64,000 nucleotides of DNA from Streptacidiphilus jiangxiensis (GTDB lineage: Bacteria; Actinomycetota; Actinomycetes; Streptomycetales; Streptomycetaceae), in NCBI RefSeq assembly GCF_900109465.1, contig NZ_FOAZ01000001.1, positions 509,926 through 573,925 of the forward strand, given 5' to 3'. Within the stretch, counting starts at the first letter, position 1, and each line of letters begins with the position of its first letter. Under the pieces are notes generated by a model. The model made no database searches. It was not told where the DNA came from and worked only from the letters and a program-made list of their open reading frames with translations. A program made the position numbers and the translations under genes. Shown piece by piece: positions 11,616 to 33,528 of this stretch.

Positions 11616-13025
11616 TCACGTCATCGTCTCGAACCGAACTTGTCGGGTCCCGGTCGCCTCCGTCACCAGTGACCGCTCCAGCTCGGTCAGTCCGCGCTCG
11701 ATGTCGGCCCGCGAGAAGAACCCGGTGTCGGCCGTCACCGAGAACTCCAGCGTGCCGGTGGTGGAGGTGCTCACGTGGACGCAGAACCGGCAGTTGAGCT
11801 TGGACTGGCGAAGCGGCCAGCTCAGCTCGGTCGCGGCCAGCGCCGCCTCGATCTCGGCCGGCGCGTACGAGGAGGGGCCGGGGTCCGCGAAGCGCATGTC
11901 GTTGAAGCAGGCGAGCGGTTGGACCCAGCTGCCCTCGGCGCGGTCGCGCGGGTCGTGGAAGGCGCTGCGGTAGGCCCGCATCGCTGCCGCGTCCGCGCCG
12001 CGCAGCAACTGCGGCAGGGGGCGGTCGACCCCGTCGAGCGAGAAGACACCTTCCTGGGAAAGGGTGCTGACGAGCCGGGAGACGTCGGGACGGAAGCGGT
12101 TGTTGACGATGGGCAGCACGGTGCAGCGGTCCTGGTCGGTGGCGCGCGCCACCAGCACCGCCGTCGCCGCCAGCAGCACCGTCGAGGTGGACGTCCGGTG
12201 CGCGGCGGCCAGGGCGCGGGAGGCGAGGTCCAGGGCCGGTGAGGCGAGTCGGGCGCGCCAGATCGGAGGGTCCTCCGCGGCGCCGACGGCCCGCTCGAAC
12301 ATCACGCCGTGGGGGACCGCCTCCCACAGCTCGGCGGCGCGGCGGGCGACCCGGCGGCCCTCGGCGGACTCCTGCCAGGCCGCCAGGTCCAGCGGGCGGG
12401 GAGGGGCCGGCCGGGCGAGCCGGCCTCCACGCAGCAGCAGCATGCGCAGGTCCCGCACGGCGATCTCGGAGCCGAGTCCGTCCGCCGCCAGGTGGCAGAA
12501 GCCCAGGACCACATGGGTGACCCGGTCGCCCGACCGCACCAGTGCCACCCGCACCGGCCACTGCGACTCGTAGTCGAAGCGTTCGGCGTTCAACCGCTCC
12601 AGCACCGACTCCGGGTTCTCCTCGGTGACCAGGACCGGCAGGGTGCCCGCGGCCTCAAGCCGTTGGCGCGGCTCCGGGCCCGACAGGTCGAGGCGGGTGC
12701 GCAGCGCGCCGTGCAGCGCGGTCAGGCCGGCGACGGCCTCCAGCACCTCGGCCACCGTGCGCCGGCCCGGCACCGGCAGGACGCGGCCGAAGTTGAAGTA
12801 GTGGTCGTCGGGCACCGTTTTGCGGACCGCGTCCCAGATGGCCCGCTGGCCCCAGGTCAGCCCACCGGTGCCGGAGTCGGCCGCGGCGAAGGCGACGGAC
12901 TCGACCACGCCGTCCGGCGCGGTGTGCGCGGCCTGCGTGACCGGGTTCCGGGCCGGGGCCGGCGCGGCGTGGGTGGCCGGGCTCCCGGCAGGGTCGGGCG
13001 CCGCGGCCTGCGCTGCCGTGCTCAT
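11616..13025 (-). CDS. Stand-alone condensation-domain protein
   Basis: 469 residues, one NRPS condensation domain preceded by about 50 Ala/Pro-rich residues. The active-site motif HHxxxDG appears as CHLAADGLG (about residues 176-184): the first His is Cys, while the second, catalytic His and the Asp-Gly are retained. It could therefore still catalyse condensation or acyl transfer. Later family landmarks such as TVLPIVNNRF and FVCFND-like ACFNDMRF are present. It is the last gene of the leftward operon; its start overlaps the carrier-protein stop (ATGA). A free condensation enzyme next to a free carrier protein suggests the two act together on a carrier-bound acyl group. Confidence 0.85.
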   Translation of the reverse strand: MSTAAQAAAPDPAGSPATHAAPAPARNPVTQAAHTAPDGVVESVAFAAADSGTGGLTWGQRAIWDAVRKTVPDDHYFNFGRVLPVPGRRTVAEVLEAVAGLTALHGALRTRLDLSGPEPRQRLEAAGTLPVLVTEENPESVLERLNAERFDYESQWPVRVALVRSGDRVTHVVLGFCHLAADGLGSEIAVRDLRMLLLRGGRLARPAPPRPLDLAAWQESAEGRRVARRAAELWEAVPHGVMFERAVGAAEDPPIWRARLASPALDLASRALAAAHRTSTSTVLLAATAVLVARATDQDRCTVLPIVNNRFRPDVSRLVSTLSQEGVFSLDGVDRPLPQLLRGADAAAMRAYRSAFHDPRDRAEGSWVQPLACFNDMRFADPGPSSYAPAEIEAALAATELSWPLRQSKLNCRFCVHVSTSTTGTLEFSVTADTGFFSRADIERGLTELERSLVTEATGTRQVRFETMT

Positions 13026-13279
13026 CGGGCCGTCAGGTGCGCGGCGAGCGCGTCGAGGTCGTCGGTGAGGGCCCAGCCCGACTCGTCGAGGGTGATCTCG
13101 ACGCCGAACTCGGCCTCGACGGCGTCGAGCAGGCGCATCCGCGCGAGCGAGGTGAGGCCCCGCTCGGACAGGGTGGCGTCGCCCTCCAGCAGGTCGCCGA
13201 CCGCGAGTGCGCCGTCCGAGCAGCCCTCGACCAGCTCGGCGATCCGCTGCTTCACCGCCTGTGTCGTGCTCCGGGTCAT
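13022..13279 (-). CDS. Discrete acyl/peptidyl carrier protein
   Basis: 85 residues, four-helix carrier protein. The phosphopantetheine attachment serine is in SERGLTSLARM at about residue 41; the GxTSL form is closer to ACPs and DltC-like carriers than to the GGHSL of NRPS PCPs. Its ATG overlaps the NRPS stop (ATGA) and its stop overlaps the condensation gene start, giving a tightly coupled three-gene operon. It needs a 4'-phosphopantetheinyl transferase from elsewhere. It could carry the acyl unit made by the E1/E2 enzymes of the opposite operon, which is an inference. Confidence 0.88.
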   Translation of the reverse strand: MTRSTTQAVKQRIAELVEGCSDGALAVGDLLEGDATLSERGLTSLARMRLLDAVEAEFGVEITLDESGWALTDDLDALAAHLTAR

Positions 13280-16200
13280 GACCCGTCCCCTTCCGTCCGT
13301 TCCGTCTCCTGGGCCAGCAGCTGCGCCGCCTCGGCCTCGGTGAGCCGGCCGATCTCGGCCAGCAGCAGGTCCTCCAGTGCGGCCGCGACGCCGGCCACCG
13401 TGGTCGCGTCGAAGAGCGCGCGCACCGGCAGTTCGATGTCGGTGGCCTCGCGCAGCCGGGCGATCACCTTGACGGCGAGCAGCGAGTGGCCGCCGAGGGC
13501 GAAGAAGTCGTCCGACGCGCCCACCTCGGCGAGGCCCAGCACCTCCGCGAAGACCTCCGCCACCAGTGCCTCGGCGTCGGTGCGCGGCGCCACCACCTCC
13601 CGGGCCAGGGAGGGTTCGGGCAGCGCGGCACGGTCCAGCTTGCCGTTGGGTGTGAGCGGCAGCGCGTCCAGCGGCACCCAGAGCGTGGGCACCAGGTGGG
13701 CGGGCAGCAGCGTCCGCAGCTCGGCGGCGACCGGTTCCGGGTCGCCGACGACGTAGCCGACGAGCGTGTCGCCGAGGACGGCGACGGCGCCGCGGCCGCC
13801 GAGGGCGGCCTCGATCTCGCCGAGCTCGATCCGGAAGCCGCGCAGCTTGACCTGGTCGTCGCGGCGTCCGAGGAACTCCAGCTGCCCGTCGGCCCGCAGC
13901 CGGGCCAGGTCGCCGCTGCGGTACCAGCGTTCGCCGGCCACGACCGGGAACCGTTCGGCGGTGGTCCCGGGGCGGTCGAGGTAGCCCTCGGCGAGTCCGG
14001 TCCCGCCGATCCACAGCTCGCCGGGCGAGCCCGGCGGCACGTCCTCGCCGTGGCGACCGCGCAGCGCGATCCGGGTGCCGGCGAGAGGGGTGCCGATCGG
14101 CGGCCGTGCGCCGTCGTCGGGCGCGGACGCGGGGCCGACGAGCTCGGCGGCGGTGGCGATGACGGTGGCCTCCGTCGGGCCGTAGGTGTTGACCACCCGG
14201 ACCCGCTCACCGAAGCGGGACCGCCAGCGGTCGACCGCGGCCCGGTGAACCTGCTCACCGCCCAGGATCACCAGTCGCAACGTGTCGGGCCAGACGACCC
14301 GGTCGATCTCGTCCACCAGGTGGTGCCAGTAGGCGGTGGGCAGGTCCAGGACGGTGACGCCGTCGAGGTGGTCGGTCAGGGTGACCGGCCCGTCCGGCAG
14401 CAGCTCCAGCCGGGCGCCGCTCGCCAGCGCCGGGAAGATCTCCTCGGCGTGGGTGTCGAAGCTCAGCGAGGCGAACTGCACCACCCGGTCCTGCGGGCCC
14501 AGTCCGTACGCCTCGCGCATCCAGGCCACCCGGGCGGCCAGGGCCTCCTGGCCGACCAGCACGCCCTTGGGCACGCCGGTGGATCCGGAGGTGTAGATGA
14601 CATAGGCGCCGCCGTCGTGACGGCGGGAGCCCTCGGCCGCGACGGGGCCCTGCGCGGTCAGCACCACACATGCGCCGCTGTCCTGCGTCATGAAGTCCAA
14701 CCGCTGCTCGGGGTAGGCCGGATCGAGCGGCAGGTAGGCGCTGCCGGCGCGCCAGCAGGCGAGCAGGGCGGCGATCGTCTCGCAGCTGCGGCCGAGCCGC
14801 ACCCCGACCACGCCGCCCGCCGGCAGCTCGGCGGCCAGCTCCTCGGCGCGGGCGTCGAGCCGGGCGTAGGTCCACCGTTCGTCCCCGCACGCCACGGCGA
14901 CGGCGTCGGGGCGCTCCCGCACCTGCGCCGCGAACAGGTCCAGCACGCGGGGCGCCGGGCCGGACGGCGGCCCGGACAGCACCGCGCTCTCGTCCGCGGC
15001 GAGCAGCGGCAGGGCCGACAGCGGACGCTCCACCTGTCCGGGCAGGGCGCGCAGCAGGCGGGCGAACCGGGCGGCCAGCCGCTCCATCGTCTCCCGCTCG
15101 AACAGCCCGGCGTCGTAGACGAGGGTGGGCAGCAGCTCCCGCTCGTCCTGCCAGACCTCCAGCATCAGTTCGAACTTGGCCTGCTGGAAGCCGTGTTCGA
15201 AGTCCTCGGCGGTCAGGCCGGCGAAGCCGTCCGTGGCGCGCGCGGAGCCCTGGTTGTGCAGGATGGCCATGGTCTGGAAGAGCGGCGTACGGGCCAGGTC
15301 CCGGCCGGTGCGCAGCTGGGCGACCAACTCCTCGAACGGGACGCCCTGGTGGGCGAAGGCGCCGAGTACGTCGGCGCGGGTGCGGTCCAGCAGTTCCGCC
15401 GCGGTCGGGTCGCCGGCCAGCTCCCCGCGCAGGACCAGGACGTCGGTGAGGTAGCCGATGACCGGCTCCAGCTCCAACCGGTCCCGGCCGGCGGTGGCCG
15501 TGCCGACCAGGATGTCCTCGGCCCCGGTGTGCCGGGCCAGCAGCACCTGGTAGGCGGCGAGCAGCACCATGAACACGGTGCAGCCGCGCTCCTGGCCGAG
15601 CCGGCGCAGCGCCTCGGCGTCGGCGCGGTCCAGCGGTACCTCGACGAGCGCGCCGCGTCGGCGCGGTACGGCGGCCCGCGGGTGGTCGACGGGCAGGTCC
15701 AGCTGGGTGGGCGCGGAGAGCCGGTCCTGCCAGTAGGCGAGGTCCGCGCTCTGGTCGCGCTCCCGCTGCCAGCGCGCGATGTCGCCGAACTGGAGCGGCA
15801 GGGAGGCGAGTTCCCGTCCGGAGTAGCGGGCGGCGAGCTCGTCGTGGAGCAGGTTCAACGACCAGCCGTCGCCGTTGATGTGGTGCAGGACCAGGCACAG
15901 CACGTGGTCCTGGTCGCCCAGGCGGATCAGGCTCGCTCGCAGGGGCGGAGCGGTGCCGAGGTCGAACGGCGCGTTGGTGCGGGCGGCGACCAGCAGCTCG
16001 GCCGCGGCCGTGTCGGCCGCGTCGAGACGTTCCAGCGGCACCGGCCGGGGCGGTTCGACGACGGCGACCGGGGCGCCGTCGCGCTCCGGGTAGCGGGTGC
16101 GCAGGGACTCGTGGCGGGCCGACACCTCGTCCAGCGCGGTCTGGAGCGCCTGTTCGTCGAGGGGGCCGCGCAGGCGGCGGACGAGCCACATGTTGTAGGC

Positions 16201-19200
16201 GGCGTCGTCCGGGTCCAGGCGGTGCAGGAACCAGAGCCGCTCCTGACTCGCGGAGAGCGGCGGTGCCGTTCCCTCCGGCCGCGGGCGCGGCTCGGTTCCA
16301 GGGTCGGCCCCGTTGCCGGCTCCGGTGGCGGAGCGGTCCAGCCGGGCGGCGAGCGCCGCGACGGTCGGGCTGCCGAAGAGCTCGCCGACGGGAACGGGCG
16401 CGCCGGTCAGCGCGGTCAGCCGGGCCGCGACCATGGCCGCGCGCAGCGAGTGGCCGCCGAGCGCGAAGAAGTCGTCGTCCGCCCGGACCTGGGCGGCCTG
16501 CTCGACGCTCAGTTCCAGCACCTCGGCGAAGACGTCGGCCACCAACCGCTCCCGCGCGCCGCGCGGGGTGCGCCCACCGGCCGGGCGCGGGGCGACGGCG
16601 TCGGGGTAGGGGAGGGCCTTGCGGTCGACCTTGCCGTTCGGCGTCAACGGCAGGGCGGGGAGCGCGACCCAGGCGGCGGGAACCAGGGCGGCGGGCAGCC
16701 GCGTGACGAGGTACGCGTGCAGCGCCTCGCCGTCCGGCGGGCCGACCGGGTCGGCCGACGGGTGGGAGTCGGCGGGCTGGTCGGACGCGGCGGGCTGGTC
16801 GGACCCGGCGGGTCGGCCGGATCCGGCGGACCCGCGGGACCCGGCGGGCTGGTCGGACTCGGTGGACAGGCAGGGCTCGGCGGGCACGTAGAAGGCGACC
16901 AGTCGCTCGTCCTTGACGCCCACCACGGCCTGGCGGACCGCGGGATGGGTCTCCAGCGCGGCGCCGATCTCGCCCAGTTCGATGCGGTGGCCGCGCAGCT
17001 TGACCTGGTTGTCGGTGCGGCCGAAGAACTCCAGCGTGCCGTCGCCGAGCCGGCGCACCACGTCGCCGGTGCGGTAGACGCGTTCGCCCGCGCGGTCGAC
17101 GAAGCGCTCGGCGGTGAGCTCGGGGCGGCCCAGGTAGCCGTCGGCGACGCCCGCGCCGCCGATCAGCAGCTCTCCGGGGACGCCGATCGGCACCTGCGCG
17201 CCGCGCTCGTCGACGACGTGGACGGTGGTGTTGGCGATCGGCCGCCCGATGGAGACGCGCTCCGGATCCTCGGGGATCTCCCACGCGGTGGACCAGATCG
17301 TGGTCTCCGTCGGCCCGTACACGTTGACCAGCCGGTCCACCCGGGCGCGCAGTTCGCGGGCCAGGCGCAGCGGCAGCGGCTCACCGCCGGTCAGCGCGGT
17401 CACCCGGGGCAGGTCCCCGGTGAGCGCCACCCGCCAGCCGGAGGGCGTGGCCTGGACGTGGGTGACCGCCTCGAACCGGACCAGCCGGGCCAGTTCGGCT
17501 CCGTCGAGGGCGGCCGGGCGTCCGGCGACGACGACGCGGCCGCCGGTGACCAGCGGCAGGTAGAGCTCCAGGGCGGAGATGTCGAACGAGAGCGAGGTGA
17601 GCGCGAGCCAGCGGTCCTCGGCCGTGGAGCCGACCAGCGCGCGCAGCGCCAGCAGGAAGTTGGTGAGTGCCCGGTGGCCGACGACCACGCCCTTGGGGTT
17701 GCCGGTGGAACCGGAGGTGTAGAGGACGTAGGCGGGCTGCTCGGGAGTGGGCCGGGGCAGCTCGGTGGCCGGCCGGCGGCGGCCGGGGGTGAGCACGTGG
17801 TCCAGGTCGGCGTCGTCCAGGGTGAGGGCGGCGCCGCTGTCGGCGATCACGTAGTCGACGCGGGCCTGCGGGTAGTCGGGGTCGACGGGCAGGTACGCGG
17901 CCCCGGTGCAGAGCGTGCCGAGCAGGGCGACCAGCATCTCCGCGCGGCGCGAGGAGCGTACCGCGACGACCGAGCCGGGGCCGATGCCGCGCGCCGCCAG
18001 TTCGGCGGCGAGACCGGCGGCGGCCTCGGTCAGCTCGCGGTAGCCGATCTCCCGTCGGCCGTGGCGCGGGTCGTTGGCGCAGACGACGGCCACGGCGTCG
18101 GGTGTCTCCCGGGCCTGGGCGAGCAACAGGTCGACCAGGGTCAGCGGGGGCAGTTCGGCGTCGGTCGCGTTCCAGGCGTCCAGCTGCGCCCGCTCCTCGT
18201 CGGGCAGCAGGGCGAGCCGGCTGACGGGCCGGGACGGGTCGGTCAGGAGGTCGGCGAGCAGGCACAGGAAGCGGTCGGCGAGCCGGCGCGCGGTGTCCTT
18301 GTCGAAGAGGTCGGTGCTGTGGAGGAGGACACCGAGCAGCCGGTCGGCGCCGTCGTCCGCGCCGGGCTCCTCGTAGAGGTCGAGGGACAGGTCGCAGCGG
18401 GCCGGGTGCCAGCCGAGCGGGAACGGCTCCGCGTCGAGACCGGGCACTGGCCGGTCCACGTCGCCGTGCGTGTGCAGGGCGAACATCGCCTGGTAGAGGG
18501 GGGTGCGGCTGAGGTCCCGGTCGATGCCGAGCCGGGAGACCAACTGCTCGAACGGTGCGTCGGGGTGGGTGAGCGCGGAGAGCACCTGGGTGCGGGTCGC
18601 CTTCAGCAGGTCGGTGAAGGCGGGGTCGGCGGTGAGGTCGCAGCGCAGCACCATCGTCGTCGACAGGAAGCCGACGACGCCCTCCAGTTCGGGGCGGTCC
18701 CGTCCGGCGGCGGGAGTGCCGACGCAGAAGTCCTGGCCGCCGCCGTGGCGGGAGAGCAGCACCTGGTAGGCGGCCAGCAGCACCATGTACGGGGTGGTGC
18801 GGGTGTTCCGGGCCAGCTCGCGCACGCCGGCGAGCAGCGGGGCGGGGATCGGGAAGCGCACCTCGTCGCCCGCGGAGGTGCGCCGGGCGGGGCGGGGGCG
18901 GTCGGTCGGCAGCTCGAGCGGTGGAGCGCCGGCCAGCCGCCCGACCCACCAGTCCAGGTCCGCACCGGTTCCCGTGGCGGCAGCGGCGGCGGCCGCCACC
19001 GCGGAGTACTGGAGCGGCGGCTCGCCCGGCTCGTCGCCCGCGTACGCGGCGGCAACCTCGGCGCGCAGCACGTTGAAGGACCACCCGTCGCCGTTGATGT
19101 GGTGCAGCACCACGCACAGCACGTGGTCGTCCTCGGCCAGCCGGACCACGGTGACCTGGAACGGGGCTGCCGCGGCCAGGTCGAACCGGGTGTTGGTGCG

Positions 19201-19494
19201 GGTCGCCACGAGCTGCTCGGCCTGCTGCGCCGACGCGGCCGTCAGCAGGTCCACCACGACGGGGGCGGGCTCGTCGACGACGGCGCGCGGTTCGCCCGAG
19301 GGGGTGGTCACGAAGCGGGTGCGCAGGGCGTCGTGACGGGCCGCCACCTGGGTGAAGGCCGCCGCGAGCCGCTCCAGGTCGAGGGGGCCGCGCAGTCGGT
19401 AGGCGTAGGCGGTGTTGTGGGACGGGTCGGTGGGGTCGAACTGGTGCAGGAACCACAGACGTTGTTGGCCGGGCGAAAGCGGACCGGTCTTCAC
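13276..19494 (-). CDS. Two-module nonribosomal peptide synthetase, C-A-PCP-C-A-PCP
   Basis: 2072 residues from GTG 19494, preceded by GGGGGA (spacing 3-4); a TTG at 19539 is possible. Order: C1 (HHINGDG near residue 132), A1 (YTSGSTGNPKG near 590), PCP1 (LGGHSLRA, Ser near 1013), C2 (HHINGDG near 1206), A2 (YTSGSTGVPKG near 1638), PCP2 (LGGHSLLA, Ser near 2002). No epimerase or thioesterase. It begins with a C domain, so it accepts an upstream acyl or aminoacyl unit. Pocket residues read by eye: A1 D-I-L-Q-L-G-V-I-W, one change from the published Gly code DILQLGLIW; A2 D-T-E-D-I-G-T-V-I, whose Glu/Asp pair suits a basic side chain such as Lys. A1 contains a repetitive insertion at residues 873-915. 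Confidence 0.95.
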   Translation of the reverse strand: MKTGPLSPGQQRLWFLHQFDPTDPSHNTAYAYRLRGPLDLERLAAAFTQVAARHDALRTRFVTTPSGEPRAVVDEPAPVVVDLLTAASAQQAEQLVATRTNTRFDLAAAAPFQVTVVRLAEDDHVLCVVLHHINGDGWSFNVLRAEVAAAYAGDEPGEPPLQYSAVAAAAAAATGTGADLDWWVGRLAGAPPLELPTDRPRPARRTSAGDEVRFPIPAPLLAGVRELARNTRTTPYMVLLAAYQVLLSRHGGGQDFCVGTPAAGRDRPELEGVVGFLSTTMVLRCDLTADPAFTDLLKATRTQVLSALTHPDAPFEQLVSRLGIDRDLSRTPLYQAMFALHTHGDVDRPVPGLDAEPFPLGWHPARCDLSLDLYEEPGADDGADRLLGVLLHSTDLFDKDTARRLADRFLCLLADLLTDPSRPVSRLALLPDEERAQLDAWNATDAELPPLTLVDLLLAQARETPDAVAVVCANDPRHGRREIGYRELTEAAAGLAAELAARGIGPGSVVAVRSSRRAEMLVALLGTLCTGAAYLPVDPDYPQARVDYVIADSGAALTLDDADLDHVLTPGRRRPATELPRPTPEQPAYVLYTSGSTGNPKGVVVGHRALTNFLLALRALVGSTAEDRWLALTSLSFDISALELYLPLVTGGRVVVAGRPAALDGAELARLVRFEAVTHVQATPSGWRVALTGDLPRVTALTGGEPLPLRLARELRARVDRLVNVYGPTETTIWSTAWEIPEDPERVSIGRPIANTTVHVVDERGAQVPIGVPGELLIGGAGVADGYLGRPELTAERFVDRAGERVYRTGDVVRRLGDGTLEFFGRTDNQVKLRGHRIELGEIGAALETHPAVRQAVVGVKDERLVAFYVPAEPCLSTESDQPAGSRGSAGSGRPAGSDQPAASDQPADSHPSADPVGPPDGEALHAYLVTRLPAALVPAAWVALPALPLTPNGKVDRKALPYPDAVAPRPAGGRTPRGARERLVADVFAEVLELSVEQAAQVRADDDFFALGGHSLRAAMVAARLTALTGAPVPVGELFGSPTVAALAARLDRSATGAGNGADPGTEPRPRPEGTAPPLSASQERLWFLHRLDPDDAAYNMWLVRRLRGPLDEQALQTALDEVSARHESLRTRYPERDGAPVAVVEPPRPVPLERLDAADTAAAELLVAARTNAPFDLGTAPPLRASLIRLGDQDHVLCLVLHHINGDGWSLNLLHDELAARYSGRELASLPLQFGDIARWQRERDQSADLAYWQDRLSAPTQLDLPVDHPRAAVPRRRGALVEVPLDRADAEALRRLGQERGCTVFMVLLAAYQVLLARHTGAEDILVGTATAGRDRLELEPVIGYLTDVLVLRGELAGDPTAAELLDRTRADVLGAFAHQGVPFEELVAQLRTGRDLARTPLFQTMAILHNQGSARATDGFAGLTAEDFEHGFQQAKFELMLEVWQDERELLPTLVYDAGLFERETMERLAARFARLLRALPGQVERPLSALPLLAADESAVLSGPPSGPAPRVLDLFAAQVRERPDAVAVACGDERWTYARLDARAEELAAELPAGGVVGVRLGRSCETIAALLACWRAGSAYLPLDPAYPEQRLDFMTQDSGACVVLTAQGPVAAEGSRRHDGGAYVIYTSGSTGVPKGVLVGQEALAARVAWMREAYGLGPQDRVVQFASLSFDTHAEEIFPALASGARLELLPDGPVTLTDHLDGVTVLDLPTAYWHHLVDEIDRVVWPDTLRLVILGGEQVHRAAVDRWRSRFGERVRVVNTYGPTEATVIATAAELVGPASAPDDGARPPIGTPLAGTRIALRGRHGEDVPPGSPGELWIGGTGLAEGYLDRPGTTAERFPVVAGERWYRSGDLARLRADGQLEFLGRRDDQVKLRGFRIELGEIEAALGGRGAVAVLGDTLVGYVVGDPEPVAAELRTLLPAHLVPTLWVPLDALPLTPNGKLDRAALPEPSLAREVVAPRTDAEALVAEVFAEVLGLAEVGASDDFFALGGHSLLAVKVIARLREATDIELPVRALFDATTVAGVAAALEDLLLAEIGRLTEAEAAQLLAQETERTEGDGS
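16750..16872 (-). repeat. Low-complexity tandem repeats inside the first adenylation domain
   Basis: This in-frame stretch encodes variants of a five-residue unit (SDQPA, GSDQPA, SDQPAD, plus SGRPAGS), rich in Ser, Asp, Gln, Pro, Ala and Gly. The DNA shows matching short repeats (cggcgggctggtcgga). It sits in the small C-terminal subdomain of A1, after LVAFYVPAEPCL and before the stretch leading to NGKVDRKAL, probably as an exposed loop. Confidence 0.75.
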
Positions 19495-19529: not shown

Positions 19530-19558
19530 TGACGAGCAAATGACGAGCATTGACGAGC
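19530..19558. repeat. Three direct repeats upstream of the two-module NRPS gene
   Basis: TGACGAGC occurs at 19530-19537, 19541-19548 and 19551-19558, spaced 11 and 10 bases, so all three lie on about the same face of the helix. They are 36-64 bases upstream of the GTG of the NRPS gene. Activators of the SARP type bind direct repeats with such spacing, but no SARP gene is in the window. Confidence 0.55.
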
Positions 19559-19593
19559 CCTGGGGAGGATGGCAGACTGACGCGCGCCCAGTC

Positions 19594-19609
19594 AATGGTC
19601 TATACCAAG
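19594..19609. promoter_or_regulatory. DasR-type operator (dre) in the divergent NRPS promoter
   Basis: AATGGTCTATACCAAG matches the published DasR consensus ACTGGTCTAGACCACT at 12 of 16 positions, including both TGGTC and ACCA cores. It lies 99 bases upstream of the leftward NRPS start and 87 bases upstream of the rightward ligase start, so one bound DasR dimer could affect both operons. The dasR gene is 14 kb to the right. Confidence 0.7.
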
Positions 19610-19696: not shown

Positions 19697-21109
19697 ATGA
19701 GTCCTACCCTGTGCGAACTTCTGCGCGTCCGCGCCCGCGAGGAGCCCGAAAGACAGGCGCTCGTCGTCGCCGGAGTGGGGGCGCTCGACTTCGGCGAGTG
19801 GGTCCGCAGGGCGGACGCCGTCGCCGCAGGACTGCTGCGCCAGGGCGTCGCCCCGGGTGACCGGGTGGCCCTCGTCTTCGGCAACGGCGAGTGGCTGGAC
19901 TACGCCGTCGCCTTCCTCGGCGTGCTGACCGCCGGAGCGGTCGCCGTGCCGCTCTTCGACCAGCTCGCCGCCGCCGACCTCGACGTCCGGATCCGTGACA
20001 GCGGTGCGAGCGTGGTGCTGCGCGCGGGCACGCTGCCCGCAGCCGAGCCGGACAACGCCACCGACGCGGCCCGACCGACGCCCGCCGCAGGCGACCTCGC
20101 CCAGATCCTCTACACCTCCGGAACCACCGGACGTCCCAAGGGTGTCGGCGCCACGCACGCGAACCTGGCCTACGGCTGGGGCGGGCGCCGTCGTCCCTTC
20201 GCCCACTCGCGGCACCTGGCGCACGGCTTCCCGATCGGCACCAACGCGGGCCAGTGGATGCTGGCCAACGCCATCGGCGCGCACCCCACCGTGGTCACCC
20301 TGCCCCGGTTCACCCCCGGCCGCTTCGCCCGGCTGATCGAGGAGCACCGGGCCGGGACGGTCTTCCTGGTGCCCACCATGGCCATCGAGATGCTGACGGC
20401 CGGGGTGCACACCCGTGCCGACCTCTCCAGCGTGCTGCTGCTCGGCTCCGCCGCCGCGCCGCTGCCGGGCCGGGTCGCGGGAGAGCTGGCCGCCGCGTTC
20501 CCCCGGGCGACCATCGCCAACTACTACACCTCCACCGAGGCCGCGCCCGCGCAGACGGTCATGCTCTTCGACCCGGAGCGCCCCGCCAGCCTCGGCCGCC
20601 CGACCTCCGGCGGAGCGGTCCGGATCGCCACCGCGGACGGCGAGCCGGCGCCCGCCGGAACGGTGGGCGAGGTCTGGATGCGCTCGCCCGTCGCCGGTCG
20701 GAGCTACTACGGCGACGCCACCGCCACCGGGGAGGTGTTCCGCGGCGGCTGGGTCCGCATGGGCGACCTCGGCTACCTGGACGACGACGGCTACCTCTTC
20801 CTGGTCGACCGGGAGAGCGACGTCGTCAAGTCCGGTGCCCACAAGGTCTCCACGCTCCACGTCGAGGAGGTCGTCCACCAGCACCCGCAGGTGGTCGAGG
20901 CCGCCGCCTTCGGGGTGGCGCACGAGTCCCTCGGCAAGGCCGTGGCCGTGGCCGTCGTCGGCGCGGTGGACCACGCGGACCTGCGCGGCTTCCTCAAGGA
21001 CCGGCTGGCCCCCCACGAGATGCCGCACCGGCTCGTCACGCTCGACGCCCTGCCCCGCAACCACGGCGGCAAGGTGGACAAACGCGCACTTCGAGAGGTA
21101 GTTCAGTGA
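19697..21109 (+). CDS. Adenylate-forming ligase (acyl-CoA synthetase/A-domain type)
   Basis: 470 residues from ATG 19697, with GGGGGA 6 bases upstream. Motifs of the ANL superfamily: ILYTSGTTGRPKG near residue 137, the YYTSTEA A5-like site near 275, the GDLGYLDDDGYLFLVDRESD hinge (in two parts around residue 360), and the catalytic Lys region HGGKVDKRAL at the C-terminus. It resembles fatty-acid/aryl CoA ligases more than NRPS A domains, and no carrier domain is fused. Its stop overlaps the start of the C-PCP gene, so it probably activates a carboxylic acid and loads it on that PCP. First gene of the five-gene rightward operon. Confidence 0.88.
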   Translation: MSPTLCELLRVRAREEPERQALVVAGVGALDFGEWVRRADAVAAGLLRQGVAPGDRVALVFGNGEWLDYAVAFLGVLTAGAVAVPLFDQLAAADLDVRIRDSGASVVLRAGTLPAAEPDNATDAARPTPAAGDLAQILYTSGTTGRPKGVGATHANLAYGWGGRRRPFAHSRHLAHGFPIGTNAGQWMLANAIGAHPTVVTLPRFTPGRFARLIEEHRAGTVFLVPTMAIEMLTAGVHTRADLSSVLLLGSAAAPLPGRVAGELAAAFPRATIANYYTSTEAAPAQTVMLFDPERPASLGRPTSGGAVRIATADGEPAPAGTVGEVWMRSPVAGRSYYGDATATGEVFRGGWVRMGDLGYLDDDGYLFLVDRESDVVKSGAHKVSTLHVEEVVHQHPQVVEAAAFGVAHESLGKAVAVAVVGAVDHADLRGFLKDRLAPHEMPHRLVTLDALPRNHGGKVDKRALREVVQ

Positions 21110-22635
21110 GCCCACTCGCCATCGCCCAGCACGGGATGTGGATCTCCGCCCGGACCGGTGCGGGGACCGCCTACCACATGCCCGTCGTGATCACCCTGGA
21201 CCACGACCCCGACCTCGCCGCCCTGACCGAGGCCTGCCGCCTGGTGGTCGAGCGGCACCCGCTGCTCGGCAGCGCGGTCGCCGAGCGGGACGGCGTGCCG
21301 GTCTTCGTCCCGGCTGCGGAGCAGGCGCCGCTGACCAAGGCCGAGGGCCTGGCCGAGGTCGTGGCCGAGCCCTTCGACCTGGAGCGCGGCCCCCTCGTGC
21401 GCTTCGCGCTGGTCGGTGGCCGGACCCTGGTCGTGGTCGCCCACCACCTCGTTTTCGACGGCCTCTCCAAGGACCTGCTGGTCGCCGAACTCGCCGCGGC
21501 CTACCGCGCCGTTGGCGCGCCCGGCCGTGCCGCGGGCGACGTTGGCGCGGCCGATGGGGCCCCGGCCGTTGCCGGCGCGCCTGACGCCGCCACAACCGAC
21601 GCGGACGCCGCCGGTGTGGCGCGGGACGCCGCAGCCGTCCTGGCGGAGGCGGGCGTGTTCTGGGGCGGGCGCTGGCGTGAGCCCGCGGCGCTCGCCGTGC
21701 CCGGTGGGACGCTGCGGTCGCGGGCCGCGAGCCCCGGCGAGGCGTCGGAGTTCCGGTTGGACCTTCCCGAGCTGCCCGGACTGACCCGCTTCGAGGTCCT
21801 CACCGCCGCCCTGCACGCGCTGCTCGGTTCGTACGGCAACGCCGAGGTGGCCACCGCGATCGACCTCTCCACCCGGACCCCGGCCGAGGCCGACCTGATC
21901 GGCTGCTACGTCAACGAGCTGCCGCTCTTCTCCCGTCCGGCGCCGGAGACCAGCTTCGCGGCGTTCGCGGCCGGGCTGCGCGAGGAGCTGCGCGCGAGCT
22001 ACGCGTTCCGCGCGGTGCCGCTCTCGCGCGCGGTGCCGGGCCTGCGTCCGCACGCCGCGCTGGCGCCGGTCTCGCTCAGCTACCGGCGCCGCGCGTCGCA
22101 GGACGTCGCCGCCGGGCTGGGTGAGGTCGAGTGGCTCGCCTTCAACGGCACCGTGCGCGGCGCGCTCCAACTGCAGTTCGCCGTGGCCGGGGAGTCGGGA
22201 GAGGCACTGGTCAGCCTGCGGCACGACCCGCGCGAGCTGGTGGACGCGGCCGGCTTCGCCGCCGACCTCTCCGCACTGCTCGCCGCGGTCGCCGCGGACC
22301 CGGCGCGGCCGCTCGGGGAGCTGCTCACCTTCACCGCGCCCACGGTCGGTGCGACGGTCGGGACTTCGGACGTGCAGAAGCACTCCGACGCGGCCCCCAG
22401 GGCGTCGGTCGACGCGGACGACCCGATGGTCGCCAGGATCCTGGCGATCTGGGAGCAGGTGCTCGACCTGTCCCCGATCGAGCCCGACGACGACCTGTTC
22501 GACCTGGGCGGGCACTCGCTGACCATCACCCAGATCATCGCGCGCATGCAGCAGCAGCTCGGCGTGGAGATCTCCCTGGACGACTTCTTCGACAACCCGA
22601 CCGTCGCCGGTGTCGTCGCGGTGATCCGCTCATGA
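21106..22635 (+). CDS. Condensation-PCP didomain protein
   Basis: 509 residues from GTG 21106, overlapping the ligase stop by 4 bases. Condensation domain first: active site AHHLVFDGLS (HHxxxDG intact, near residue 110), preceded by AIAQHGMWISARTG, the C1-like start. An Ala/Gly/Asp-rich insert at about residues 130-185 interrupts the domain after the active site. A PCP follows at about 440-509, with DDLFDLGGHSLTITQ carrying the phosphopantetheine serine. No adenylation domain, so its PCP must be charged in trans, most simply by the preceding ligase. Confidence 0.88.
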   Translation: MSPLAIAQHGMWISARTGAGTAYHMPVVITLDHDPDLAALTEACRLVVERHPLLGSAVAERDGVPVFVPAAEQAPLTKAEGLAEVVAEPFDLERGPLVRFALVGGRTLVVVAHHLVFDGLSKDLLVAELAAAYRAVGAPGRAAGDVGAADGAPAVAGAPDAATTDADAAGVARDAAAVLAEAGVFWGGRWREPAALAVPGGTLRSRAASPGEASEFRLDLPELPGLTRFEVLTAALHALLGSYGNAEVATAIDLSTRTPAEADLIGCYVNELPLFSRPAPETSFAAFAAGLREELRASYAFRAVPLSRAVPGLRPHAALAPVSLSYRRRASQDVAAGLGEVEWLAFNGTVRGALQLQFAVAGESGEALVSLRHDPRELVDAAGFAADLSALLAAVAADPARPLGELLTFTAPTVGATVGTSDVQKHSDAAPRASVDADDPMVARILAIWEQVLDLSPIEPDDDLFDLGGHSLTITQIIARMQQQLGVEISLDDFFDNPTVAGVVAVIRS

Positions 22636-23540
22636 CGGCCACCGTCACCGAGGCGGCCGTCGCGGAGGGGGCGCCCTCGGACGAGGACCTGTCACTGCTG
22701 CTCACCATCCGGGCCTTCGAGGAGAGGCTGCTCGACCTCTTCGGGCAGGGCATGCTCAACGGGACCACCCACACCTGCCTCGGGCAGGAGTACGTGCCCG
22801 TCGCGCTCGAGGCGCTCCTGCGTCCCGAGGACCACGTCTTCAGCAACCACCGCGGCCACGGGCACTACCTGGCCCGGCACCGCGACCCGGAGGGCCTGCT
22901 CGCGGAGATCATGGGCCGCCGCGGGGCGGTCTGCGGCGGGGTCGGCGGCAGCCAGCACATCCGCACCGAGCGCTACCTGTCGACCGGGGTCCAGGGCGAG
23001 AGCCTGCCCGTCGCCTGCGGCGTCGCGCTACGTCTGCGGCGGGTCAGCCCCGGCGCGCTGGCCTGTGTCTACGTCGGTGACGGCACCTGGGGCGAGGGCG
23101 GGGTCTACGAGGCGCTGAACCTGGCGGCCCTGTGGCGGTTGCCGCTGCTGGTGGTGGTGGAGAACAACGGCATCGCCCAGTCCACGCCGACGCAACGGGC
23201 CATGGCCGGGACGATCGCCGGTCGGGCCGCCGCCTTCGGCATCGCCCACGAACGTGTCGTTGGCAGTGACCTGGCCGCGATCCGGCGGCAGTTGGCGCCG
23301 GGTGTCGAGGCCGTGCGCGGTGGCGCGCCGCTGGTGGTCGAGTTCGTGACCCACCGGCTCGGCCCGCACAGCAAGGGGGACGACACGCGTCCGGCGGGCG
23401 AGCTCGCCCGGGTGCGCGCCGCCGACTGGCGGGCCCCCTACGCCGCGGCCGAACCGGAGCGCGTCGCACGCCTGGAGGCTGCCGCGCGGGCCCGGATCGA
23501 GGCCGTCGTCGCCGATGTCGTCGCACGGGAGCCGTCATGA
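22632..23540 (+). CDS. Thiamine-dependent E1 component, alpha subunit (2-oxoacid dehydrogenase-like)
   Basis: 302 residues, ATG overlapping the previous stop. The thiamine diphosphate and Mg binding motif GDGTWGEGGVYEALNLAALW...VENN (GDG...NN, about residues 147-180) is complete. HRGHGHYLARHRDP near residue 75 is the phosphate-binding His segment of the PDH/acetoin dehydrogenase E1alpha family. QSTPTQRAM corresponds to the phosphorylation-loop region. Slightly short for E1alpha (usually 320-370). With the next gene it would form an alpha2beta2 E1 that decarboxylates a 2-oxoacid, or takes C2 units from ketoses, and acylates lipoyl groups of the E2. Confidence 0.9.
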   Translation: MTATVTEAAVAEGAPSDEDLSLLLTIRAFEERLLDLFGQGMLNGTTHTCLGQEYVPVALEALLRPEDHVFSNHRGHGHYLARHRDPEGLLAEIMGRRGAVCGGVGGSQHIRTERYLSTGVQGESLPVACGVALRLRRVSPGALACVYVGDGTWGEGGVYEALNLAALWRLPLLVVVENNGIAQSTPTQRAMAGTIAGRAAAFGIAHERVVGSDLAAIRRQLAPGVEAVRGGAPLVVEFVTHRLGPHSKGDDTRPAGELARVRAADWRAPYAAAEPERVARLEAAARARIEAVVADVVAREPS

Positions 23541-24508
23541 GAGTCGCCGAGAACCTGAACGCGGCCCTGCACCGGGCGCTGGCCGAGGACCCGGACCTGC
23601 ACCTGCTCGGCGAGGACGTGCTCGACCCCTACGGCGGGGCGTTCAAGATCACGCGGGGTCTCTCCGACCGCTTCCCGGAGCGGGTGCTCTCCACGCCGAT
23701 CAGCGAGAACGCGATCACCGGGGTGGCCGCCGGGCTGGCCCTGGCGGGCGACAGCGCCATCGTGGAGATCATGTTCGGCGACTTCGCCGCCCTGGCCTTC
23801 GACCAGCTGGTCAATTTCGCGGCCAAGTCCGTGTCGATGTACGGGAGCCGGGTGCCGATGCGGCTGGTCGTCCGCTGCCCGGTCGGCGGCGGCCGCGGTT
23901 ACGGTCCGACCCACAGCCAGAGCCTGCAGAAGCACTTCGTCGGCGTGCCCGGACTGGCGCTCTACGAGGTCTCGCCGTTCCACGACAACGCCGACGTGCT
24001 CGCGGAGATGTTCGCGCGCGAGGAGCCGTGCGTGCTCTTCGAGGACAAGGTCCTGTACACCCGCCCGATGTACGAGGTGGCCGAGCCGTTCCGGCTCGAC
24101 GTCCACACGCCCGGCGTGGCCAGGGTGTTCCTGGACGAGCGACCGGACTGCGTGGTCGTCGCGGGCGGCGGGGTCAGCCACCGGGTGATGGCCGCGATGC
24201 GGTCGCTGCTGCTGGAGGAGGAGATCGTCTGCACGCTGCTGGTCCCCTCCCGGCTCTACCCGGTGGGGATCGAGCTGCCGCCCGGTACCAGGCGCGTCTT
24301 CGTGGTCGAGGAGGGCACGGCCGGTGGCACCTGGGGAGCCGAGGTCGCGCACGAGATCCACCGGCGTCACTTCGCGGACCTCGACGGCCCGGTGACGCTG
24401 ATCCACTCCGCGGACTCGGTGATCCCCACCGCGCCGCACCTCGAGGCGGCGGTCCTGGTCGGCGCCGACGACGTCCACCGCGTGATCCGGGAGACCCTCC
24501 GTGGCTGA
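23537..24508 (+). CDS. Thiamine-dependent E1 component, beta subunit
   Basis: 323 residues, overlapping E1alpha by 4 bases. Transketolase pyrimidine domain first: NAALHRALAEDPDLHLLGED with the Glu that activates the thiamine ring, then STPISENAITGVAAGLALAG (E of ISE is the usual cofactor-activating residue). RCPVGGGRGYGPTHSQS near residue 115 is the E1beta loop at the active site. A C-terminal transketolase domain follows (VVAGGGVSHRVMAAM, then VVEEGTAGGTWGAEV). Standard length. It must pair with the adjacent alpha subunit. Confidence 0.9.
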   Translation: MRVAENLNAALHRALAEDPDLHLLGEDVLDPYGGAFKITRGLSDRFPERVLSTPISENAITGVAAGLALAGDSAIVEIMFGDFAALAFDQLVNFAAKSVSMYGSRVPMRLVVRCPVGGGRGYGPTHSQSLQKHFVGVPGLALYEVSPFHDNADVLAEMFAREEPCVLFEDKVLYTRPMYEVAEPFRLDVHTPGVARVFLDERPDCVVVAGGGVSHRVMAAMRSLLLEEEIVCTLLVPSRLYPVGIELPPGTRRVFVVEEGTAGGTWGAEVAHEIHRRHFADLDGPVTLIHSADSVIPTAPHLEAAVLVGADDVHRVIRETLRG

Positions 24509-25667
24509 GTTGCAGGTTCCCAAGCTCAACAACCAGGACGAGGAGTACCAGCTGACGCAGTGGCTGGTCGCGGACGGGGAGCCGGTCGCGGCCGGGGACG
24601 CGGTCGTGGTGGTGGAGACCTCCAAGGCGGCGGAGGAGCTGGAGGCGACGGCCTCCGGCACGCTGCGCCACGGCGCCAAGGAGGGCGACTGGTGCCGTCC
24701 CGGCCAGGCCGTCGCCGAGATCACGGACGGGACGGCCGCGCCGGTGCCACCGCCCACCGCACCCGCACCCGCACCCGCCACCGCACCCGCCGACGGACCC
24801 GCCGACGCGGCCTCGGACGCTCCGCTGGTGACGCGCGCGGCGCAGCAACGGGCGGACGAACTGGGGGTCACCCCGGCCGAGATCGCCGCGCTCGGGCTGG
24901 CGGTGGTCCGGACGGCGGACGTCGAACGCCTCCGCGCAGCCGACCAGGCCGACCGGGCCGACCGGGCCGAGCAGGACGGCCAGGACTGCCAGGACGGCCG
25001 GGACGTCGATACCGGCCAGGAGGTCCGGGCAGCGACACCGGGCGTGCCGCTCGGCCGGGTGCAGCGCGGGGTCGCCCGTGCGGTGGAGCTGTCGCACCGG
25101 ACCATCCCGGCCGCGTACACGGTGGTCCGGATGGACCTCGGCCCCGCCCTCGGGTACGCCCGCGCCGCCACCCGCGAGGTGCGCCGACCGGTCGGCCTGG
25201 CGGAGCTCTTCGTCCAGCAGGTCGCCGCGCTGCACGGGGAGTTCCCGCGCTGCTTCGCCGCCATCGAGGGCAGCACCGCGTTGCTCGCGGACGCCCCGCA
25301 CATCGGCGTCACGGTGGATCTGGGCGAGGGCCTGTACGTCCCGTGCGTCCACGACGCGGCGCGGCGCAGCCTGCGGGAGATCGCGACGAGCCTGACGGCC
25401 TACCGTCTGGCGGCCACGACGGGCGGCTTCAAGGAGAGCGAGCTCACCGGCGCGAACTTCGTCGTCACCCTGCACACCGACGCGGACATCGTGCTGGCCG
25501 TCCCGTTCGTCTTCCCCGGTACGGTCTGCGCCCTGGCGGTGACGGCCCCGGCCGGGGACGGGTCGTTCGCCAACATCGGCCTGGCGTACGACCACCGGTT
25601 GATCAACGGCAGGGACGCCGTGCTGTTCCTGCAGGCGCTGAAGCGGCGCATGGAGGCGCTGGGGTAG
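24501..25667 (+). CDS. Lipoyl-bearing E2 acyltransferase of the 2-oxoacid dehydrogenase type
   Basis: 388 residues from GTG 24501, overlapping E1beta by 8 bases. Lipoyl domain at 1-75 with the lipoylated Lys in VVETSKAAEELEA; an Ala/Pro linker; a degenerate subunit-binding domain (RAAQQRADELGVTPAEIAA); an Asp/Gln-rich linker; then the catalytic core from about residue 180, ending in LAYDHRLINGRDA, where the DHRxxxG active-site motif is intact. It would transfer acyl groups from lipoamide to CoA or, in this setting, to a carrier protein. No E3 (dihydrolipoamide dehydrogenase) gene is nearby; reoxidation would need the housekeeping E3. Last gene of the rightward operon. Confidence 0.9.
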   Translation: MAELQVPKLNNQDEEYQLTQWLVADGEPVAAGDAVVVVETSKAAEELEATASGTLRHGAKEGDWCRPGQAVAEITDGTAAPVPPPTAPAPAPATAPADGPADAASDAPLVTRAAQQRADELGVTPAEIAALGLAVVRTADVERLRAADQADRADRAEQDGQDCQDGRDVDTGQEVRAATPGVPLGRVQRGVARAVELSHRTIPAAYTVVRMDLGPALGYARAATREVRRPVGLAELFVQQVAALHGEFPRCFAAIEGSTALLADAPHIGVTVDLGEGLYVPCVHDAARRSLREIATSLTAYRLAATTGGFKESELTGANFVVTLHTDADIVLAVPFVFPGTVCALAVTAPAGDGSFANIGLAYDHRLINGRDAVLFLQALKRRMEALG

Positions 25668-25699
25668 CCGCACCACCGGCCGGACCACCGGCCGGACCA

Positions 25700-25749: not shown

Positions 25750-25751
25750 GC

Positions 25752-31250
<5,499 letters not shown>

Positions 31251-31445
31251 TGACGTCCTCCGGATTGGGGCGGGTCAAGGGACGAGGGCGGGGAGACACC
31301 CCGTGCGGCGCTGCGCGGGATGGGGAAGGGCTGGTCCGCGGGCCGCCGTTCGGTACGGCGGTGGCTGCCCGCCGGGGGCGTCGCCGAGCCCGGCCCGTGT
31401 TCGGCCGGTGTCCGGCCTGCGGTGGGGCGTCGGTGCGGCCCGCGG

Positions 31446-33455
31446 TTACCGACGAGCGTCGGCGACGGAGCCGACGGTGCCGACGGAGCCGGCGGAGCCG
31501 ACGGTGCCGGTGGCGCGGACGCGCGGGGCGTCGAGCGGCTGGTCGGCGGGGGAGCGGTGGTGGGCGTCGCCGCGGGTGCGGGTCGGCGCGGGGGAGGGGA
31601 CGACGGACCGGGAGCACAGCACGCCGTCGGCGGTGAGCGAGACGAGACGGCCGGCTTGTCCGGCCAGCAGGGTGGCGCCGGCCGCGGGGGCGAGGACCTG
31701 CCAGGGCTGTTCCGTGGCGGGCGGCCGGTGCAGGACGCGGTCCTGGTCGTCGAGTGCGTACAGCCGCCCGTTGACCGCCGTCACGGTCCGCAGCCTGGTC
31801 CCGGCCGGTGGCGGGGCGAGGACCCGCCAGCGGCGCGGCGCGCTCTGCGGCGCGGTCCACAGCGTGCCGCGCCGGTCCAGGGCGAAGAAGCGGGCGTCGC
31901 AGACCGCGAGGCCGACGGTCCCCTCCGGGCAGCGGCCGGCCGTGCGCCAGCCACGGGCCTCGGGGTAGGCCGACCGCGCCAGCAGGCGGCCGGCGCCGTC
32001 CACCCCGTAGAGCGCCAGCGGTCCGTCGACGGTGGCCTCGCGCGGGGCGGCGAGCGCGAGCAGGTCGGGTGCGGGGCCGGCCGGTCGCAGCCGGCGGTTG
32101 TGCTGGTCCGCGGGACGCACCCCGAGGGTGCCGTCCGCCATCGCCGCGAAGAGCCAGGGCCCCGCGCCGGCCAGGGCGCGGGCGCCGCGCGCCGAACCGA
32201 AGGCCGTCCAGCCGCCCGCGTGGGCGGGCGCGGAGAGGCGTTCCAGCACGTTGCGGGTGATCCGGTCGACCACCGGATCGTGGAGCGCCGCTCCCCAGTT
32301 GACCGTCCCGGCGTTGAAGACGGTGCCGGCCCCGGACCGGAAGACGCCCAGCACCGCCCAGCCGCCCTGGCCGTAGGCCTCCCAGTGGCGCAGGTCGGCC
32401 GTGGCGAGCACGGCGAACGAGGCGGGTGTGCCGTCGCGCCCGGTGGCGGTGGGGACTCCGTCCGCGAACTCCAGGTCGGCCGCGTCGGTCTCGTAGCCGA
32501 GGGCGCCGCGGGCGAAGCTGTCGCCGTCCCGCAGACCGGTTCCCTCGAAGACCCAGTGGTCGGCGAAGGCGACGGTGTAGGACTCGCGGCGCATCAGCGG
32601 CATCGAGGGGCCCCAGCAGCCCGCGCCGCTGCGGAAGCTCAGGCCGGTCAGGGAGTTCTCGGGGCGGTGGACCGGGTCGGACGACCACTCCACGGTGGTG
32701 CGTTCGGGCCGGGTCGAGGCCAGCGGGTCGGTGGCGGCGTCGCGGTGGCAGACCATGGTGCGGCCGCCGTCCTCCAGACGCATCTGCCACCAGGCGGTGT
32801 TGGCGCCGAACACGGCGAGGTTGCCGCCGGCGCGGACGAACCCCTCGACCTGGTCGCGCATCTCCCAGGTCCAGTACTCGTCGTGGCCGTTCACGACCAG
32901 CAGCCGGTAGCCGACCAGGGCCTGCGGATCGAGGTGGAGGTCGAGGTTGGAGCAGTAGTCGGCGTCGCCGTGGTCCGCGGCCGGGCCGTGGCGGCGCAAC
33001 CAGCGCATCAGCCCCTCCTCCCAGCGCTCGGGGGGAGGCCCGCCGCCGGGGCGGTCGAAGCTGACGCGTGCCGCGCGGTCGGGGTCCTCGGTCCAGTAGA
33101 GGCCCTCACCCGGGACGCCGCTGCGGTTGTAGGCCTGCCAGGTGGCGAACGGGACGGAGAGCAGCAGCCGGCGTCGCGGTGCGCCCGCGGCCGGGCGGAC
33201 CACGAACCAGACCTCGCCGTCCTCACCCCGGCCCGGCTCGAAGACGGCGCGGTACAGCGAGCTGCGCCAGTCGCGCGGGACGGTCAGCCGCCAGTGCGCG
33301 CCGGTCACGGAGGCACTGAGCACCGTCCGGCCGTCGACGGCGTCCTCGACCGTCACCCGGCCGCGGACCGGGCCGGGCCGGGTGGAGCTCACGACGAAGT
33401 CCAGCTGCTCCCCGGCCCGACACGAGGTCGCCGCCGCGTATGCCACCAAGGTCAC
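31446..33455 (-). CDS. N,N-dimethylformamidase beta-subunit-like protein with beta-propeller-like C-terminus
   Basis: 669 residues from GTG 33455, which has GGGGGAGG 9 bases upstream; a TTG at 33527 would lie inside the operator and is rejected. Residues about 1-440 resemble the large subunit of N,N-dimethylformamidase and related amidohydrolases: PFATWQAYNRSGVPGEGLYW, YCSNLDLHLDP, LVVNGHDEYWTWEMRD and a glutamine-amidotransferase-like fold. Residues about 450-630 form repeated blades (PWLFAAMADGTLGVRP, ALYGVDGAGRLLARS, RFFALDRRGTLWTAP, RLYALDDQDRVLHRP). The C-terminus is a Gly/Ser/Val repeat (TGTVGSAGSVGTVGSV). No signal peptide. It is 195 bases upstream of the NRPS-MFS gene on the same strand and could share its transcript. 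Substrate unknown. Confidence 0.75.
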   Translation of the reverse strand: MTLVAYAAATSCRAGEQLDFVVSSTRPGPVRGRVTVEDAVDGRTVLSASVTGAHWRLTVPRDWRSSLYRAVFEPGRGEDGEVWFVVRPAAGAPRRRLLLSVPFATWQAYNRSGVPGEGLYWTEDPDRAARVSFDRPGGGPPPERWEEGLMRWLRRHGPAADHGDADYCSNLDLHLDPQALVGYRLLVVNGHDEYWTWEMRDQVEGFVRAGGNLAVFGANTAWWQMRLEDGGRTMVCHRDAATDPLASTRPERTTVEWSSDPVHRPENSLTGLSFRSGAGCWGPSMPLMRRESYTVAFADHWVFEGTGLRDGDSFARGALGYETDAADLEFADGVPTATGRDGTPASFAVLATADLRHWEAYGQGGWAVLGVFRSGAGTVFNAGTVNWGAALHDPVVDRITRNVLERLSAPAHAGGWTAFGSARGARALAGAGPWLFAAMADGTLGVRPADQHNRRLRPAGPAPDLLALAAPREATVDGPLALYGVDGAGRLLARSAYPEARGWRTAGRCPEGTVGLAVCDARFFALDRRGTLWTAPQSAPRRWRVLAPPPAGTRLRTVTAVNGRLYALDDQDRVLHRPPATEQPWQVLAPAAGATLLAGQAGRLVSLTADGVLCSRSVVPSPAPTRTRGDAHHRSPADQPLDAPRVRATGTVGSAGSVGTVGSVADARR

Positions 33456-33490
33456 CTCGTGCCGCCTCCCCCGGGCAGACCACTGGACCC

Positions 33491-33528
33491 ATTGGTCCAG
33501 ACCTAGGTGGAGATTGGCATAGACCAAT
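33491..33528. promoter_or_regulatory. Tandem DasR-type operators before the formamidase-like gene
   Basis: Two 16-base sites, ATTGGTCCAGACCTAG (33491-33506) and ATTGGCATAGACCAAT (33513-33528), are 22 bases apart, two helical turns. They lie 36-73 bases upstream of the GTG of the leftward formamidase-like gene and just after the dasR stop. They can only serve a leftward promoter, so they probably control that gene and possibly the NRPS-MFS gene behind it. Confidence 0.75.

Follow-up and report, generated by a model that had tools for sequence, protein, structure and literature searches.

Gene content of the cluster

We analysed a stretch of 64,000 nucleotides (the window) from contig NZ_FOAZ01000001.1 of the soil bacterium Streptacidiphilus jiangxiensis, whose genome measures 9.54 Mb, for putative operators (dre) of DasR, a regulator responding to products of chitin breakdown, in the promoters of a non-ribosomal peptide synthetase (NRPS) cluster. 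The cluster is about 22 kb long, and its nine genes are located between dasR (33591-34406, minus strand) and the DUF3311-mctP pair (11557-9627, minus strand). Judged by gene direction, they form three transcription units, NRPS1 with C469 (minus), ACL-CT-E1a-E1b-E2 (plus) and DMFA with NRPS-MFS (minus), instead of the two NRPS operons with outward promoters given in a preliminary description of this DNA; the divergent promoter named there, at 19594, is present and lies inside the cluster. The nine genes are the following, ORF standing for open reading frame and C, A, T and TE for condensation, adenylation, carrier and thioesterase domains.

11616-13025, minus: C469, standalone condensation-domain protein (Pfam PF00668, E 4.4e-15)
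13276-19494, minus: NRPS1, two modules, C-A-T-C-A-T; probable GTG start at 19494 (ORF listed to 19539)
19697-21109, plus: ACL, acyl-CoA/AMP ligase (Pfam AMP-binding, E 1e-57); predicted ATG start at 19697 (ORF listed from 19550)
21106-22635, plus: CT, condensation-like and carrier protein; start predicted from the translation
22632-23540, plus: E1-alpha of a 2-oxoacid dehydrogenase (Pfam E1_dh, E 3.5e-43); start predicted (ORF listed from 22131)
23537-24508, plus: E1-beta of a 2-oxoacid dehydrogenase (Pfam Transket_pyr)
24501-25667, plus: E2 acyltransferase of a 2-oxoacid dehydrogenase (Pfam 2-oxoacid_dh, Biotin_lipoyl)
25752-31250, minus: NRPS-MFS, C-A-T-TE fused to a major facilitator superfamily (MFS) transporter
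31446-33455, minus: DMFA, N,N-dimethylformamidase beta-like protein (DMFA2_C; Pfam PF20254, E 3.5e-73), first in its unit; predicted GTG start at 33455

Condensation, adenylation, carrier and thioesterase domains are all present, which identifies the locus as an NRPS cluster. The adenylation-domain codes, read off the motifs and re-read by script (several domains of relatives returned no code), are DILQLGVIW and DTEDIGTVI in NRPS1, which we take to be Gly-like and basic-residue-like, and DFTKVGHVG in NRPS-MFS, presumably Asp-like; no product is named for the cluster on these presumed specificities. DMFA showed no match among solved structures at E <= 1. No regulator domain was found in the nine genes (Pfam for eight, NCBIfam for CT), in agreement with the preliminary description, which had the locus lacking a regulator of its own.

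dre-like sites in the cluster promoters

The window was searched with the 12-bp DasR core TGGTCTAGACCA, allowing up to two mismatches, a dre being taken as a 16-bp palindrome. It contained 11 core matches, whereas 100 dinucleotide-shuffled versions averaged 0.96 and never exceeded 4, so that the dre-like sites of the window are real and far above chance. Four of them are located in the gap between dasR and dasA, two pairs at the 5' ends of ORFs past the das genes (39701 and 39727; 41433 and 41452), and three in the two promoter regions of the NRPS locus (19594; 33491 and 33513). The sites bearing on the cluster, the native dasR sites and the promoter elements, which were predicted by reading the sequence, are given below.

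19594-19609, plus: dre 1, AATGGTCTATACCAAG, one mismatch in the 12-bp core, conserved in L156:7222
33491-33506, plus: dre 3, ATTGGTCCAGACCTAG, core TGGTCCAGACCT, two mismatches; downstream half of the tandem module before DMFA
33513-33528, plus: dre 2, ATTGGCATAGACCAAT (minus strand ATTGGTCTATGCCAAT), two mismatches; in the -35/-10 spacer of the DMFA promoter
34508-34734, no strand assigned: four dre-like sites (starts 34508, 34532, 34695, 34719) in the native dasR-dasA intergenic region
19566-19595, minus: predicted NRPS1 promoter, TTGACT (19595-19590), 18 bp, CATCCT (19571-19566); dre 1 abuts and overlaps the -35 box
19550-19578, plus: predicted ACL promoter, TTGACG-17-CAGACT, identical in sequence in genome G009

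The DasR-consensus sites that the preliminary description had placed at 19594-19609 and 33491-33528 were thus recovered, with one and two plus two core mismatches, respectively, and both stand above shuffled sequence: the 19594 site in the divergent promoter had a probability of 0.0032 in 5000 promoter shuffles, and the pair in the DMFA promoter was equalled in none of 5000. A chance origin of the sites was rejected on these shuffles together with the conservation described below. An iron box was also considered as an alternative operator, and a 19-bp palindrome for it gave no match in the window at up to three mismatches.

dre 1 is common to both divergent promoters: it is located at the -35 box of NRPS1 and a short way past the point where ACL transcription is expected to begin. 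In the DMFA promoter, dre 2 occupies the spacer between the -35 and -10 boxes, and the second dre, 21-23 bp on, lies past the -10 box; the -35 box reads TTGCCA in the window and TTGACC or TTGACG in the aligned relatives, and the -10 box CAATCT, or CAGTCT in G009. At the three predicted promoters, the placement of the dre is that of a repressor.

Operator modules and relatives of the cluster

A genome scan with DMFA detected close homologs in Kitasatospora indigofera, Peterkaempfera, Embleya, Streptomyces, Catellatospora, Dactylosporangium and Actinospica, and the gene content and order of these relatives were mapped by tblastn. In the NRPS promoters, the dre is fused to the -35 box of NRPS1 as TGGTNNAGACCATTGAC, which was present with variable flanks in 10 out of 10 aligned promoters (window, G009, three Embleya-type and five Streptomyces); the alignment left out K. 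indigofera, where the tandem module takes its place at the NRPS operon, and the order-level genome G045, whose NRPS has a different dre pair. The same module was found in 144 of 394 genomes of the family, the reversed control giving 0 throughout the results listed. The form TGGTATAGACCATTGAC, in which the dre core abuts a TTGAC -35 box, has a single copy in the genome of the window, the NRPS1 promoter.

Twenty ORFs downstream of the module were scanned with Pfam and gave 10 GH18 (one below cut-off), 5 lytic polysaccharide monooxygenases (LPMO), 1 NRPS and 4 others. The first ten, taken from 30 loci, all of genus g6, and picked for differing N-termini, comprised eight GH18 chitinases, a melibiase and a weak S9 peptidase. 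Twelve places were added from the three genera g14, g4 and g15 (L302 missed the site and L297 had no ORF), and the ten scanned there gave five LPMO_10, two GH18, one condensation domain and two ORFs without match. The condensation-domain gene, L295 in G222, matches the first NRPS of the Streptomyces cluster L199 with 67% identity along 425 residues, and was for this reason counted in the same NRPS family. Since its module also precedes GH18 and LPMO genes, NRPS1 would have a DasR promoter of the chitinase type.

The DMFA operator belongs to a second, tandem module of the form TGGTCTATGCCA-N10-AGGTCTGGACCA. Its first half, TGGTCTATGCCANTCT, was found at 22 places in 13 of the 394 family genomes, with one match overall in the reversed control. 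These genomes include the window's own, G009, K. indigofera (G130) and P. griseoplana (G082); the nine others (G092, G166, G188, G192, G200, G212, G230, G244 and G248) were detected by way of the module and do not count as independent cases. Twenty-one of the 22 places directly precede pathway genes, namely DMFA (7), ACL (8) and a gene matched as CT (6), which in the longer stretches examined turned out to be the first NRPS gene. A TTGAC box was present at 20 of the 21 (TTGCCA in the window), and the second site, [A/T]GGTCTGGACCA, at 17 of the 21. The exception, L261, has no pathway gene behind it and neither the TTGAC box nor the second site.

The tandem module also accompanies pathways that are split. 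In G130, G212 and G230 (the genus of K. indigofera; L278-L283), DMFA-C469-ACL is located apart from the NRPS genes with NRPS-MFS, on different contigs in G130 and at a distance of about 7 Mb in G212 and G230. Each of the three genomes has one NRPS-MFS end and one DMFA (E <= 1e-60), and the module stands before the DMFA, ACL and NRPS units alike, hence at both loci; because the two gene sets are complementary, the split loci would make one product. G166 (L284, L285) has, besides a contiguous copy, an additional NRPS copy, with NRPS-MFS near 7.31 and 7.88 Mb, the tandem module at both NRPS-MFS loci and DMFA at one only. The pathway does not always include DMFA, since a match at E <= 1e-60 was missing in 5 of the 9 genomes searched.

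Among the relatives, the presence of sites follows that of DasR. Sites with up to two mismatches were found in cluster promoter regions of all 13 DasR-encoding genomes first examined, which are the window, G009, K. indigofera, P. griseoplana (contributing a DMFA fragment and its promoter only), the Embleya-type L002, L160 and L163, five Streptomyces (L199-L203) and G045. When 14 site-bearing promoters from 10 of the 13 genomes were shuffled, the chance of a single site ranged from 0.0012 to 0.0112, and in each of the five 19.9-kb upstream stretches of Streptomyces the match in the NRPS promoter is the only one. Conversely, the region upstream of the first NRPS gene was free of sites in all of six clusters, four from Catellatospora and two from Dactylosporangium; in five of these genomes no DasR match reached E <= 1e-60, and the other one has a 48% homolog only. 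One of the six site-free stretches contains a stray match, L207:11402, 3.6 kb off. Both counts were made after dropping L015 and L017, short contigs without promoters, and A. durhamensis (L016/G047).

In the four Catellatospora clusters (L204-L207), a homolog (54-56%) of the das-locus hexosaminidase is located directly upstream of the first NRPS gene, its family having been checked for L205. In these genomes, which have no DasR ortholog, the neighbour is a second link to N-acetylglucosamine (GlcNAc) metabolism. The two Dactylosporangium species (L208, L209) have in common another upstream sequence before the first NRPS gene, GTAAGG..TGTTGACAGTTG, perhaps the site of another regulator.

Predicted DasR control and its alternatives

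The regulator gene and the far end of the cluster are:

33591-34406, minus: dasR, ortholog of S. coelicolor DasR
11267-11557, minus: DUF3311 gene, followed by mctP (9627-11270), at the far end of the inserted cluster

The dasR product matched S. coelicolor DasR (4zs8) with an E value of 9.5e-133, and the genome has one copy at E <= 1e-80. We consider it highly probable that direct repression of all three units by DasR best explains the sites, on the strength of their position and conservation. With a DasR ortholog in the genome and dre-like palindromes that stand above chance in the promoters and are kept before orthologous genes, the cluster is a candidate dre-bearing (class I) target of the DasR regulon. 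In the absence of a chitin-derived signal, DasR would occupy the operators and block the three transcription units: at NRPS1 it would cover the -35 box, at DMFA it would sit in the spacer between -35 and -10 and on the second site just past -10, and at ACL it would act as a roadblock just beyond the start. GlcNAc-derived phosphosugars would release DasR, and the peptide genes would be turned on along with chitinases and chitin-type LPMOs. Production of the peptide is probably a response to chitin; DasR binding, the sign of the control and the inducer are what we infer here from the DNA.

The closest known system is daptomycin in S. roseosporus, where DasR binds the promoter of the structural operon at dptE and the cluster is described as lacking a cluster-situated regulator (PMC9404778). 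The present cluster resembles it in being an NRPS cluster without a regulator of its own and with DasR, here by prediction, on a structural-gene operon, and this precedent for NRPS structural genes directly repressed by DasR removes the novelty that the preliminary description had seen in dre sites placed directly in structural-gene promoters. One dpt promoter probe was bound, with a 16-nt site at +72 to +87 (PMC9404778), whereas the predicted sites here lie on core promoter elements of three units and form a stereotyped module across genera. The chitinase promoters of Streptomyces carry direct repeats, several of them bound by DasR (review PMC6097792); NRPS1 is like the DasR-regulated ones in having a dre fused to the -35 TTGAC, but the gene behind it encodes an NRPS and not a secreted chitin-degrading enzyme. 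In the antibiotic clusters of S. coelicolor, which share the regulator and the operator consensus, DasR binds the promoters of pathway regulator genes (PMC4398421), and no such gene was found here.

Several observations weigh against DasR repression of the three units. Four of the 21 tandem places, all before DMFA (L269, L272, L273, L275), have a degraded second site, and no recognised chitin-related gene stands behind any of the 22 tandem places (L261 not being classified). The chitinase-type module also precedes the melibiase, the weak S9 peptidase match and the two ORFs without Pfam match (4 of 20). A. durhamensis (G047) has a DasR homolog, and its two DMFA loci, which are more distant and without ACL or NRPS-MFS homologs, have no sites. 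In S. venezuelae, the chloramphenicol cluster and other clusters were not activated during the first 24 h on chitin (PMC12370203). Three further points, the consistent deviation of the tandem first site, the lack of genome-wide enrichment and the lincomycin cluster, are taken up with the alternatives that they favour.

The alternative that survives best, though we regard it as unlikely, is that another regulator, of GntR/HutC type or dedicated and unlinked, reads the tandem module, and that only the NRPS1 site belongs to DasR. It would account for the pathway specificity of the module (21 of 22 places before genes of this NRPS family) and for the fact that the first site, TGGTCTATGCCA, strays from the DasR palindrome in the same way throughout. 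However, no regulator domain was detected in the nine genes of the cluster, the second half of the module is a near-canonical dre in 17 of the 21 places, the window and G009 combine the tandem module at DMFA with the chitinase-type DasR module at NRPS1/ACL, and the occurrence of sites follows that of DasR.

Less probable still is that the sites are weakly bound or inert and the cluster is driven by other global signals. A precedent exists in the lincomycin cluster, whose predicted dre sites DasR failed to bind (PMC11180011). In addition, matches with up to two mismatches are not enriched genome-wide, with 334 compared to 410 in the reversed control, so that a single two-mismatch site is unremarkable and the weight rests on pairing and conservation. 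As for the genome-wide standing of the sites, which the preliminary description had presented as a measure of how exceptional they are, 7 of the 36 genome places with 0 or 1 mismatch fall inside the window. Among the other 29, sorted by a rough coding test based on G+C at third codon positions (GC3), 14 overlap no candidate ORF and most of the remainder are close to ORF 5' ends or in frames of weak local GC3, while four look clearly intragenic (L082, L086, L213, L215) and two are doubtful (L095, L220). Against inert sites stands their conservation in Kitasatospora-type, Embleya, Streptomyces and order-level relatives, at promoter elements whose flanks vary.

The least probable explanation, and in our view a very poor one, is that the adjacency to dasR stressed in the preliminary description brings about the control, through dasR read-through or a local concentration of DasR. 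dasR and DMFA are indeed co-directional in the window, with a gap of roughly 135 bp; however, dasR is directly followed by DUF3311-mctP in 11 of 16 relatives (4.6 kb apart in one, and with DUF3311-mctP outside the stretch in four), and the window's cluster stands exactly between the two. In the other 12 DasR-encoding genomes first examined, the cluster is not beside dasR in the available contigs (in P. griseoplana within about 10 kb). Because clusters away from dasR also have operators, adjacency did not create them, and the cluster's place beside dasR seems to result from a lineage-specific insertion that the control apparently does not require. Of the direct GlcNAc/chitin control by an adjacent regulator proposed in the preliminary description, the control is favoured by operator position and cross-genus conservation, and the adjacency is disfavoured.

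With direct DasR repression as the preferred reading, the apparent novelty is a conserved NRPS family in which no regulator was found and which is predicted to be wired into the chitin regulon at several promoters and independently of location. Titles and the beginnings of abstracts in the open literature (most subscription journals being outside it) gave no description of the cluster family or the tandem module, and nothing joining dimethylformamidase to an NRPS gene cluster. A wider proposal, to which we would give even chances, is that the chitin regulon includes this regulator-less pathway family as one unit, with operator modules travelling with the genes, a pathway that in some Kitasatospora is split over loci about 7 Mb apart but stays under one switch, and a peptide that is a dedicated metabolite of chitin feeding; its role would be, for example, against fungi or competitors during chitin digestion. 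If this holds, the peptide family would be predictably switched on by chitin, GlcNAc or removal of dasR, and would allow a clean test of the idea that certain secondary metabolites are part of the chitin-feeding programme itself and not of general starvation. The tandem operator module would also serve as a searchable tag for the scattered parts of one pathway.

Other dre-like sites of the window were found beyond the das genes. Two (39701-39742) are located at the 5' end of an ORF for a second sugar-binding protein (39629-41056), and two (41433-41467) at the 5' end of the ORF at 41216-43000, which encodes a histidine kinase resembling PdtaS; they precede the GAF domain of the kinase, whose gene may be a DasR target and may start later than listed. 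A few kb from the das genes, on the plus strand (43164-47195), lies an NRPS of the Pls/PosA family (TIGR02353, 667.7 bits compared with a cut-off of 423.1), a kind which we take to make poly-lysine-like polymers.

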